Of a stretch of DNA of 64,000 nt, positions 18,441 to 62,234 are shown piece after piece. The position numbers and the translations under genes were made by a program. Origin of the DNA: Dugong dugon (lineage: Eukaryota > Chordata > Mammalia > Sirenia > Dugongidae); assembly GCA_030035585.1 (NCBI GenBank), contig CM057462.1:92525234-92589233 (forward strand), written 5' to 3'. The notes under the pieces were generated by a model, which saw only the letters and a program-made list of their open reading frames with translations, searched no databases and had not been told where the DNA came from. Numbering within the stretch: the first letter of the stretch is position 1; each line of letters begins with the position of its first letter.

Positions 18441-18648
18441 AAGTCCCTGGGTGGTGCAAATGGTTAATGTTCTTGGCTGCTAGCCATAATAAGGTTGGAG
18501 GTTCAAGTCCACCCAGAGGGGCCTTGGAAGAAAGATCTGGTGATCTACTCCCAAAAAATCAGCCATTGCGAGTCCCATGGAACACAGTTCTACTCTGACA
18601 CACATAGGGTCACCATGAGTCGAATCAACTTGACTGCAACTGGTTTTA
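18441..18648 (+). repeat. AfroSINE, subtype with type C head
   Basis: It starts agtccctgggtggtgcaaatgg, has the aaaaatcagccattg middle, and ends tcaacttgactgcaactgg. It sits directly next to the previous SINE, inside the region of its right-hand target-site duplication. Confidence 0.9.
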
Positions 18649-22950: not shown

Positions 22951-23015
22951 TGTGTGTGTGTGTGTGTATATGTGTGTGTGTGCACACGCGCACGCATGCA
23001 CATACATGCACATGC
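22951..23015. repeat. (TG)n to (CA)n run, 65 bp alternating purine-pyrimidine
   Basis: Every base from 22951 to 23015 alternates, moving from TG units through TATA to GCAC, GCGC and CATG units. The TG half can pair with the CA half, so both Z-DNA and a hairpin are possible. Confidence 0.95.
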
Positions 23016-32466: not shown

Positions 32467-32668
32467 TGTTGTTATGTGCCTTGAGTTGATTTTGGCCTCA
32501 CAGCGACACAATGTGACAGAGTAAAACTGCCCTAGGGTTTTCTAGGCTGTGTAATCTTTACAGGAGCAGATTGCCAGGTCTTTTCTCCCATGGAGCCGCT
32601 GGGTGGGTTCGAACTGCCAACTTTTCTGTTGGCAGCCTAGCGCTTAACCATTGTGCCACCAGAGCTCC
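32467..32668 (-). repeat. AfroSINE with RTE-like tail
   Basis: The reversed 3' end reads gttgttatgtgccttgagttg, closer to the RTE terminus than to the usual SINE end. The body (cctttacaggagcagattgcc-type middle) and reversed head (ccaccagagctcct) are complete. Confidence 0.9.
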
Positions 32669-32676
32669 TCATACCA

Positions 32677-32838
32677 AAAACCCAAACTGGTTGCCGTCTA
32701 GTCGATTCTGACTCATAGCAACCCTATAGGACAGGGTAGAACTGCCCCATAGGGTTTCCAAGGAGTGGCTGGTAGATTTGAACAGCTGACCTGTTGGTTA
32801 GTAGCCTGAGCTCTTAACCTCTGCGCCACCAGGGCTCA
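32677..32838 (-). repeat. AfroSINE, short subtype
   Basis: It runs from aaacccaaactggttgccg to cgccaccagggctc. It lies head to tail with two other minus-strand SINEs. Confidence 0.93.
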
Positions 32839-43320: not shown

Positions 43321-43505
43321 CGAACACAGGAGGTTCTTGAGAGGTAAGTTGAACTGCATCATGTGACACAGAGGAGAAGGGTTCCCTGCCTAGGAAGTCA
43401 GGCAGGCTTCCCGGAGAGATCATACTCTTTCGCTTCAGCCCTTCCTGGTCCTTCTGCCTAGCTTCAGTGACTTCGTGATTTGCCCGCCCCTAGGAGCCCT
43501 GCTGG

Positions 43506-43652
43506 AAACCCTGGTGGCGTAGTGGTTAAGAGCTGGCTGCTAACCAAAAGGTCGGCAGTTCGAATCCACCAGGCGCTCCTTGGAAACTGTGCGGCAATTG
43601 TATTCTGTCCTATAGAGTCACTGTAAGTCGTAATTGACTCAACAGCGATGGG
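43506..43652 (+). repeat. AfroSINE inserted inside another AfroSINE
   Basis: It runs from aaaccctggtggcgtagtgg to cagcgatggg. The flanks taggagccctgctgg at 43491-43505 and 43653-43667 are identical over 15 bases. That flank includes the first 13 bases of the SINE that continues at 43668, so this copy landed in the head of its neighbour. Confidence 0.93.
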
Positions 43653-43654
43653 TA

Positions 43655-43786
43655 GGAGCCCTGCTGGTGTAGTGGTTAAGAACTCAGCTGCTAACCGGAA
43701 GGTCTGTAGTTCAAATCCACCAGCTGCTCGTTGGAAACCCTATGGGGCAGTTGAGTGAGAATTGACTCGATGGGAATGGGTTTTTT
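43655..43786 (+). repeat. AfroSINE, target of the preceding insertion, internally deleted
   Basis: Head ggagccctgctggtgtagtgg, B-box region ttcaaatccaccagctgc, then a jump from ccctatggggcagttg to tgagaattgactcgatgg that removes about 25 bases of the 3' part. Confidence 0.9.
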
Positions 43787-43951
43787 GGAAACCCTGGTGG
43801 TGTAGCGGTTAAGACCTATGGCTGCTAACCAAAAGGTCGGCGGTTCGAATCCACCAGGCGCTCGTTGGAAACCCTATGGGGCAGTTCTACTCTGTCCTGT
43901 AGGTTGTCTATGAGTCAGAATGGACTCAACCCCAACAGTTTTGGTTTTTGG
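43787..43951 (+). repeat. AfroSINE, short subtype
   Basis: A well-preserved copy: ggaaaccctggtggtgtagcgg, ggcggttcgaatccaccagg (intact B box), and tatgagtcagaatggactc. Confidence 0.93.
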
Positions 43952-44025: not shown

Positions 44026-44232
44026 GGAGTCCCTGGGAGGTGCAAAAGGTTAATGTACTAGGCTGCTAACTAAAAGGTTGGAGGTTCAAGGCCACCCAGA
44101 GGTGCCTCAGAAGAAAGCCTCGGAGATCTAATTCTGAAAAGAAACAGCCATTGAAAACCCTGTGGAGCACAATTCTACTCTGAAGTACCTGAGATCACCA
44201 TGAGTCGGGGTCGACTCAACGGCAACTGGTTT
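44026..44232 (+). repeat. AfroSINE (type C), one of a near-identical pair
   Basis: It begins ggagtccctgggaggtgc and ends ggcaactggttt. The flanks aatactgaaca (44015-44025) and aataccgaaca (44233-44243) match at 10 of 11. From 44048 on it aligns without gaps to 44806-44991 with five differences in 186 bases. Confidence 0.93.
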
Positions 44233-44805: not shown

Positions 44806-44991
44806 GGTTAATGTACTAGGCTGCTAACTAAAAGGTTGGAGGTTCAAGGCCACCCAGAGGTGCCTCAGAAGAAAGGCTCGGAGACCTAATTCTGAAAAGA
44901 AACAGCCACTGAAAACCCTGTGGAGCACAATTCTACTCTGAAGTACCTGAGGTCACCATGAGTCGGGGTCGACTCAACAGCAACTGGTTTA
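44806..44991 (+). repeat. AfroSINE (type C), 5'-truncated, second of a near-identical pair
   Basis: It lacks the first 20 or so bases of the SINE head and starts at ggttaatgtactaggctgc. It shares unusual variants with the copy at 44048 (ctaactaaaagg, gaaaagaaacagcc, gaagtacctgag, gtcggggtcgactc). Confidence 0.92.
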
Positions 44992-51969: not shown

Positions 51970-52320
51970 ACGGCAATACAAATGAGCAAAAAGATAATAA
52001 AATGTACTGATATTCCAGTGATAATCGCTATTAACATTTGGGTGTAATAACTTTTCAGACTTTTATTTCCTTTTCATACATTTAGGTGAAACTCTGGTGG
52101 CGTATAGTTAAGTGCTACACTTGCTAACCAAGGGGTCGGCAGTTCAAATCCACCAGGCGCTCCTTGGAAACTCTATGGGGCCATTCTACTCTGTCCTATA
52201 GGGTCACTATGAGTCAGAATCGACTCAGCAGCGACGGGTTTGGTTTTTTGGTTTATGTGTGTACAAATGTGTATTCAACAAGATATACTTTGTTTGTGTA
52301 CACTGTTTAAGGACTCATCT
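51970..52320. repeat. old L1-like 3' UTR, split by an AfroSINE
   Basis: The part 51970-52085 (gtgataatcgctattaac, gggtgtaataacttttcagac, tttccttttcatac) and 52252-52320 (gtgtgtacaaatgtgtattc) read as one old L1 3' UTR interrupted by the SINE at 52086. The motif matches 46170 and 60880. Confidence 0.55.
52086..52251 (+). repeat. AfroSINE, short subtype
   Basis: It runs from tgaaactctggtggcgtatag to cagcgacgggtttgg plus a T-rich tail. The tail is close to consensus (tatgagtcagaatcgactc). Confidence 0.92.
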
Positions 52321-60870: not shown

Positions 60871-61035
60871 TATGGATACATTAGAAAATACAAATAAGCA
60901 AAAAGGAGGAAAAAAATATAAAAAGAAGTTGTAATCTTATTACACTTTCAATTTTTTGGTATGTAACTTTTCTAATTTTTTTCCCTCTTCTAAAAAACAA
61001 TGTTATAATTTTTTCACTTAATAATATTGTAAACA

Positions 61036-61242
61036 AGAAGCCCTAGTGGCACAGTGGTTAAATACTTGGTTGCTAACCAAAAGGTCAGCGGTTCAAACCT
61101 ACCAGCTGCTCTATGGGAGAAAGATGTGACAGTCTGCTTCTGTCTGTAAAGATTACAGCCTTGGAAGCCCAATGGGACAGTTCTACTCTGTTCTATTGGG
61201 TTACTATGAGTCAGAATCAACTGGATGGCAATGAGTATTTTT
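61036..61242 (+). repeat. AfroSINE with 13-bp duplication
   Basis: It runs from gaagccctagtggcacagtgg to atggcaatgagtattttt. The flanks aatattgtaaaca (61023-61035) and aatattgtgaaca (61243-61255) match at 12 of 13. Confidence 0.94.
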
Positions 61243-61315
61243 AATATTGTGAACAGGAATAAATAGCTATTAAATTTTTAAATTTATCATCATTTTATTT
61301 AACTAATCCCTTATT

Positions 61316-61437
61316 GTCTACGGCCATACCACCCTGAACGTGCGCAGTCTCATCTGATCTTGAAAGCTAAGCCGGGTTGGGCCTGGTTAGTACTTGGATG
61401 GAAGACTGCCTGGGAATACCAAGTGCTATAGGCTTTT
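61316..61437 (+). pseudogene. full-length 5S rRNA-derived sequence
   Basis: It starts gtctacggccataccaccc and ends ataggctttt, 121 bases plus one T, the length of a complete 5S rRNA with its T4 stop. Against my memory of mammalian 5S it differs at about fourteen sites, most C-to-T or G-to-A. The internal promoter is mostly kept: agctaagc (box A region) and ggttagtacttggatgg toward box C. It is not a normal gene copy: it lies within one target-site duplication together with the SINE that follows directly. Confidence 0.93.
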
Positions 61438-61541
61438 AGAGCCCTGGTGGTACAGTGGTTAAGAACTTGGGTGCTAACCAGAAGGTCAGCAGTTCTCTAC
61501 GAGTCGGAATCGACTTGACAGCGACTGGTTTGGTTTTTAAA
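61438..61541 (+). repeat. AfroSINE part of the chimera, internally deleted
   Basis: It starts at the SINE head agagccctggtggtacagtgg, reaches ggtcagcagttc in the B-box area, then jumps to tctacgagtcggaatcgac, losing about 60 bases, and ends gcgactggtttggttttt. The deletion lies between two gcagttc words present in intact copies. Confidence 0.9.
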
Positions 61542-61604
61542 CCCTTATTGGATATTTTGATTGTTTTTGATCTGTGTTGTGCTAAGCATCCTTATATAAA
61601 CATC

Positions 61605-62018
61605 TGTCTTAGTTACCTAGTGCTGCTATAACAGAAATACCGCAAGTGGGTGACTTTAACAAACAGAAATTTATTTTCTGACAATTTAAGAGGCTAGAAG
61701 TCCCAATTCAGGGCACTGGCTCTATGGGAAGGCTTTCTGTCTGTTGACTCTGTGGGAAGGTCCTTGTCTCTTTTCAGCTTCTGTTCCTTGGTTCCTTGGC
61801 AGTCTTTATGTGGCCTGGCATGGATCTTCCCCCATCTCTGCTTGCTTGCTGGCTCAGTCTGCTCTTTTATATTTCAAAGGAGATTGATTTAAAACACATC
61901 CTACGCTGATATGGCCTCATTAATAACAAAGAAAACTCATTCCCAAATGGGATTATAACCATAGGTATAGGGGTTACGATTTACCTGTGGTTAGGGGGAC
62001 ACAATTCAATCCATGACA
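61605..62018 (-). mobile_element. MaLR-like solo LTR with 5-bp duplication
   Basis: On the plus strand it runs TGTCTTAGTTACC to AATCCATGACA, i.e. TG...CA borders. The flanks acatc at 61600-61604 and 62019-62023 are identical, the 5-bp size expected for ERVL/MaLR integration. A reversed TATA box (tttatatttcaaagg region, about 61866) matches the other LTR copies here. Confidence 0.88.
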
Positions 62019-62234
62019 ACATCCTTGAGCAATTACCAGATGGTTTCCTCAGGATAAATCCCTAGGCAAAGAATATCTGGGTCAAAGGGTATGTCCATTT
62101 TAAGCTATCAGTGATGCCAAATTACTCCCCAGGAAGGTTGTAATAGATGACACTGTCACCCAGCAGTATATGGAGCTTACATCTTTTGTTGAGTCTTTGA
62201 TTTGAAGATTATATTTTCTGAACTTAAATCTGGG

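Follow-up and report, generated by a model that had tools for sequence, protein, structure and literature searches.

A full-length 5S rRNA copy joined to the head of an AfroSINE in the dugong genome, probably a single RTE-type retroinsertion

A locus in the dugong genome carries a 5S rRNA copy and a SINE placed end to end within L1-like sequence. The arrangement raises the question of how the two came to stand together: by one insertion of a chimeric cDNA, by two insertions that happened to meet, or as one copy of an element that was already dimeric. The 64,000-nucleotide stretch of DNA that was analysed, hereafter the window, contains the chimera and many other copies of the same SINE, which serve as its comparison set. 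The coordinates of the relevant features are collected in Table 1.

Table 1. Features of the chimeric insertion, its host sequence and two control SINEs
Feature	Coordinates	Strand	Basis
T stretch upstream of nick (Tn of Tn-TA)	61293..61296	+	TTTT located 8-11 nt upstream of the T in the TA step
5' TSD TAATCCCTTATTG (core CCCTTATTG 61308-61316)	61304..61316	+	12/13 repeat
5S rRNA copy, full length plus fourth T	61316..61437 (121 nt to 61436)	+	Rfam; T run
Pol III terminator TTTT, between the halves	61434-61437	+	T run at 5S end
AfroSINE half, head AGAGCCC (for GGAGCCC) to tail GGTTTGGTTTT	61438..61537	+	alignment to window copies
3' TSD TAAACCCTTATTG (core CCCTTATTG 61542-61550)	61538..61550	+	12/13 repeat
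Host L1-like sequence, left part, resuming at 61551	61268..61316	+	empty-site alignment to L1 text
Host L1-like sequence, right part	61551..61605	+	empty-site alignment to L1 text
Neighbouring ordinary AfroSINE (SINE at 61040), control, 18-bp TSD 16/18	61022..61259	+	TTTTTT-N7-TA; 13/14 in uniform search
Control AfroSINE (SINE at 43506), exact 15-bp TSD TAGGAGCCCTGCTGG, inside the head of another AfroSINE	43491..43667	+	TTT-N9-TA

The 5S half is complete. The Rfam model 5S_rRNA (RF00001) matches positions 61316-61434 with 84.9 bits (gathering threshold 38; E 1.1e-16) over model positions 1-120 of 120. The AfroSINE head, AGAGCCCTGGTGG, begins at 61438, directly 3' of the TTTT ending at 61437, and the junction reads ...GGCTTTT/AGAGCCCTGG, with a spacer of 0 nt and no A-tail between the halves. 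The first-pass annotation had described a complete 121-base 5S sequence adjoining an AfroSINE head without a spacer, and that description holds. The junction sequence of the chimera is GGCTTTTAGAGCCCTGG. Both halves have the same (sense) orientation, with the 5S on the 5' side and the SINE on the 3' side. The insertion has no poly(A) tail, and one further T of the SINE tail is counted with the 3' target-site duplication (TSD). Compared with the human 5S sequence used as reference, the dugong copy has 14 differences in 121 positions, seven of them at CpG. Promoter boxes A and C carry two changes each and the IE carries none. Four T's stand at the 5S end, versus three in the 121-nt human reference; the fourth may be a hint that the 5S part derives from an untrimmed transcript.

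There is no second 5S in the 64-kb window, since 61316-61434 is the sole Rfam match at the gathering threshold. A permissive Rfam search of the window returned six rows, which are the 5S and five sub-threshold miRNA or snoRNA matches. Sub-threshold matches to mir-297 (both strands) and mir-466 at 22951-23015 are likely a simple repeat. Separately, ARAGORN (bacterial settings) called a tRNA-Ser (gct) at 18445-18523, between AfroSINE fragments; no Rfam tRNA was found there up to E 1, and the call is doubtful.

The insertion is bracketed by a direct repeat. The core CCCTTATTG occurs exactly twice in the window, once at each outer end of the insertion. Two matches of this core are not rare in themselves, and were reached in 28 of 100 shuffles. 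More telling is the placement of the repeat at both ends, which was assessed with random pairs of sites in the window at the same spacing, the 5' ends being allowed to vary within 1 base and the 3' ends within 6 bases. The score of the outer TSD was equalled at 10 of 4000 such pairs, and at 5 of 2000 AT-rich pairs. The 9-bp duplication given in the first-pass annotation is thus exact and present at both ends, but it understates the repeat: extended to 13 bp it contains one mismatch, and the fuller TSD starts at 61304 rather than 61308. The final G of the 5' TSD doubles as the first base of the 5S, and the start of the TSD is uncertain over 61304-61308. Removal of the insertion restores a better host sequence. 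The emptied site scored 61 against L1 reference text across the join, whereas the filled sequence scored 44 and the maximum in 300 letter shuffles was 49, in agreement with the earlier claim that L1-like text is continuous across the site. Just downstream, at 61608-62020, lies an interspersed repeat (TTAGTTACCTAGTGCTGCTATAACAG ... GGGGACACAATTCAATCCATGACA), which resembles one of the common mammalian repeats.

The integration site is informative about the enzyme. For RTE-clade LINEs and their SINEs a Tn-TA signature has been described at the integration site, with T's some ten bases before the TSD begins and a TA step at its first base, and an elephant RTE has a similar pattern (PMC13295347). 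With its TSD starting at 61304, the chimera reads TTTT-N7-TA, and among the candidate starts 61304-61308 the signature fits at 61304 alone. The base rate of the signature is 0.0072 per position and 0.021 within +/-1 base; in the local sequence, with the T window set slightly narrower, it is about 0.012. By our own arithmetic, the fit of the chimera alone has a chance probability between 1 in 17 and 1 in 140, given that only one of the five candidate starts agrees with the signature.

The other AfroSINE copies place this fit in context. A uniform TSD search was applied to all 19 copies, with the chimera's own score (at least 9) as the cut. Four of the 19 have TSDs at or above that score, and in three of these four the signature lies exactly at the TSD start. 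The remaining one, the SINE at 32669 (minus strand), has a 10/10 TSD without the signature, and its repeat, GTTTTTGG, overlaps with the tail of the SINE next to it. The signature is absent from all 15 weaker-scoring copies, among them copies with repeats of 11/12, 8/8 and 8/8; many of these 15 repeats may be chance repeats and not true TSDs.

L1, instead of RTE, could be proposed as the maker of the insertion, as both 5S/L1 chimeras and L1-made 5S retropseudogenes are documented (PMC13174262, PMC5322556). The site argues otherwise. The L1 nick motif TT/AAAA has at least three mismatches in six bases at every start tested (61303-61309), and a poly(A) tail is absent. In addition, the 3' half belongs to a SINE partnered with RTE (PMC5322556), and the human 5S/L1 chimeras typically carry a truncated 5S in antisense (PMC13174262). 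An L1 origin is therefore regarded as extremely improbable.

If the two halves had arrived at different times, they might differ in divergence. With CpG, TpG and CpA positions excluded, the 5S differs from human 5S at 5 of 81 positions. Under the same mask, the SINE half differs at 4 of 59 positions from the deleted-type consensus and at 6 of 58 from the full-middle consensus. No difference between 5S and SINE divergence is seen (Fisher p = 1.0 and 0.53), in samples small enough that they could hide a real one. The lack of an age difference is as expected for one event.

The main competing account of the anatomy supposes two insertions: first a 5S retropseudogene with an A3 tail and CCCTTATTG as its TSD, and then, at the 3' end of that pseudogene, an AfroSINE that has its own TSD of 8 bp. 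An inner repeat does flank the SINE alone, GGCTTTTA at 61431-61438 versus GGTTTTTA at 61532-61539, matching at seven of eight bases, and could be read as the TSD of the SINE. That reading would leave 5S-TTTTAAA-CCCTTATTG, in which the tail is plausible. To this extent the first-pass statement that no duplication lies between the halves is not strictly correct. However, the inner repeat is best explained as a coincidence of the 5S terminator with the SINE's own tail, because GGTTTTT belongs to that tail: it is present in 15 of 45 listed 3' ends of SINEs (the list is redundant, and the chimera is on it), for example in the copy at 52162. An inner repeat of this score or better is also commoner by chance, having occurred at 129 of 4000 random pairs (read from a histogram, with slightly different search ranges) versus 10 of 4000 for the outer TSD. 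The inner start and the outer start at 61308, which two insertions would use, fit neither Tn-TA nor TT/AAAA. Finally, two insertions would require a hit exactly at the end of the 5S, and the halves show no age difference. Two separate insertions are unlikely on this evidence.

The SINE half deserves closer description. The SINE copies of the window are taken here to be AfroSINEs. Both the tRNA-type head and the AfroSINE 3' part of the chimera align with the window copies (18 others, some of them cut), and the 3' part matches the tails of other AfroSINEs in the window. Relative to the deleted-type AfroSINE consensus of the window, the chimera has a net internal deletion of about 60 nt (counted by eye), which spans GCAGTTC to TACGAGTCGG and removes the tRNA-type B box. 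The first-pass description of the SINE half had made no mention of it. This deletion is unlike any among the 18 other aligned copies, and the sequence just past the deletion point is kept in all 18, some of which are cut short at the 3' end. It presumably arose in the same reverse transcription or later.

A different deletion, of about 45 nt in the middle of the element, is common to 8 of the 19 aligned copies. A middle deletion was reportedly described by Nikaido in 2003 as the mark of the AfroSINE subfamily of Hyracoidea, Sirenia and Proboscidea, and its presence here points to a paenungulate host. The chimera itself falls into neither the deleted, paenungulate-type subfamily nor the full-middle class, and its own deletion covers the diagnostic one. 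At the 12 consensus-distinguishing columns where the chimera has a letter, it is of the deleted type at five (40, 57, 64, 68 and 246) and of the full-middle type at six (41, 46, 232, 237, 238 and 240), and it has neither letter at one (73).

Other arrangements of SINEs in the window were noted. An AfroSINE trio at 43505-43950 was considered as a set of end-to-end SINE-SINE jumps; the first member is instead a nested insertion, bounded by an exact TSD of 15 bp, while the other two joints may be of either kind. On the minus strand at 32478-32838, a deleted-type AfroSINE (32682-32838) has apparently inserted into the head of a full-middle one, flanked by a 9/10 TSD, AGGAGCTGTG/AGGAGCTCTG. Very similar SINE-like pieces at 44048-44226 and 44806-44984, about 758 bases apart, suggest a local tandem duplication.

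Alternatively, the locus could belong to a dimeric 5S-AfroSINE family, or it could have been copied from a source locus at which read-through transcription had already joined both parts. A precedent is Ped-1 of the springhare, a 5S-headed SINE moved by an RTE-clade LINE (PMC3747384), although nothing direct points to such a family here. The anatomy is hard to reconcile with one. A TTTT terminator separates the halves and the B box of the SINE is lost, which together make a poor design for an amplifying dimer. The internal deletion sets the SINE half apart from the aligned copies, and 64 kb that hold many AfroSINE copies contain one 5S match. Judged from its sequence, this copy appears to lack a promoter that could read through the whole unit, given the TTTT at 61434-61437, the changes in boxes A and C, and the deleted B box. 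A copy of such a family or source locus is accordingly considered improbable. More improbable still is the specific case of a paenungulate dimeric family, with a 5S-type promoter ahead of a tRNA-type one, to which this locus would belong as a decayed copy with an internal deletion. A scan of viral contigs for the junction returned 59 stretches, 0 of 59 with similarity to 5S or AfroSINE (E 0.01), which are chance matches; viral-contig scans with an AfroSINE 22-mer and with an L1 target-site 22-mer returned 0 each. Because of the anatomy of the chimera, the product looks like a dead pseudogene, neither a working gene nor an amplifying SINE.

Taken together, the results indicate that the chimera is probably a retroinsertion made in a single RTE-driven event, with a template jump from AfroSINE RNA to 5S RNA. 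A single RTE-type insertion is supported because of the outer TSD, the Tn-TA site, the absence of poly(A) and the lack of an age difference between the halves. The same features uphold the proposal of the first-pass annotation that the pair was inserted as one unit with the layout of U6-L1 chimeras and an RTE-type mover. From them we infer the template jump itself and the identity of the enzyme. In the proposed sequence of steps, an RTE-clade reverse transcriptase, presumably of the RTE1 type in Afrotheria, would nick a Tn-TA site within an old L1 remnant, and target-primed reverse transcription would start on the 3' tail of an AfroSINE RNA. Copying would reach, or nearly reach, the 5' end of the SINE RNA, where the enzyme would jump, end to end, to the oligo(U) that terminates a 5S RNA on its 3' side. 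The 5S would then be copied through to base 1, and the outer TSD would close the insertion.

Other routes to a joined template would give the same DNA product, namely a read-through 5S-SINE transcript or RNA ligation. In the latter case, a 5S RNA would first be ligated to a SINE RNA, as in the RtcB proposal for L1 chimeras, and the fused RNA would then be reverse-transcribed by RTE. The end-to-end sense product would be as expected. However, the 3' oligo(U) of 5S transcripts is an ordinary end and is not known to carry the cyclic phosphate on which RtcB acts. Prior ligation is named beside template switching for sense chimeras (PMC13174262), but for this locus it seems very unlikely.

One proposed origin of new SINEs is a switch of template by a LINE reverse transcriptase. 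The dugong locus would preserve the trace of such a switch made by RTE-type machinery, together with its TSD and an integration site of the RTE type. Several known systems resemble it in part. U6 chimeras have been described with L2, with L2-driven SINEs (platypus U6-Mon-1 and anole U6-AnolisSINE2, for both of which L2 is the presumed mover of the SINE) and with RTEX-2 in anole (PMC4476161). Like the dugong chimera, they combine a small Pol III RNA with a retroelement in one event, involve stringent-type LINEs, and have been attributed to proposed template switching; they differ in that the RNA is U6, whereas here it is 5S joined to an AfroSINE, with RTE as the presumed mover. The same source gives ten elephant U6 copies joined to a repeat. 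It also lists two opossum U6-RTE/RTESINE1 candidates, in which the U6 is 5'-truncated and no obvious TSD is reported, in contrast to the full-length 5S and TSD of the dugong chimera (PMC4476161).

Among 5S-derived sequences, the human 5S/L1 chimeras also unite a 5S and a retroelement in one insertion, and 20 of the 27 cases have TSDs of 7-17 bp (PMC13174262). Unlike the dugong chimera, which is sense and full-length and has a SINE/RTE partner, they typically contain a truncated 5S part (positions 46 and 90) in antisense orientation, with L1 as the partner. This contrast concerns one locus, and no rule is drawn from it. Tailless 5S retropseudogenes likewise have a 5S copy, a TSD and no oligo(A), but their 3' ends are truncated at single-stranded regions and L1 is named as their source, whereas here the 5S is complete and is followed by a SINE (PMC5322556). 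Ped-1 shares a 5S-derived part and a mobilising LINE of the RTE clade, Bov-B, but it is an amplified family; here one locus is seen, with the 5S ahead of a tRNA-type SINE head (PMC3747384). WEIRD-MgSINE of Magnaporthe grisea is also a fusion of a non-coding RNA and a LINE-borrowing SINE, flanked by 12-bp direct repeats. It involves another RNA and another LINE, and its SINE is 5'-truncated, whereas the SINE of the dugong chimera is joined at its head (PMC2104539).

A search of the literature at the level of titles and abstract starts, with most subscription papers outside its scope, found, among the papers listed, neither a 5S-AfroSINE chimera nor any afrotherian case in which a full-length sense 5S is combined with RTE machinery and a SINE as partner. 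The kind of event is already known, as U6 chimeras with SINEs and RTE and 5S/L1 chimeras have been published; what appears to be new is this combination.
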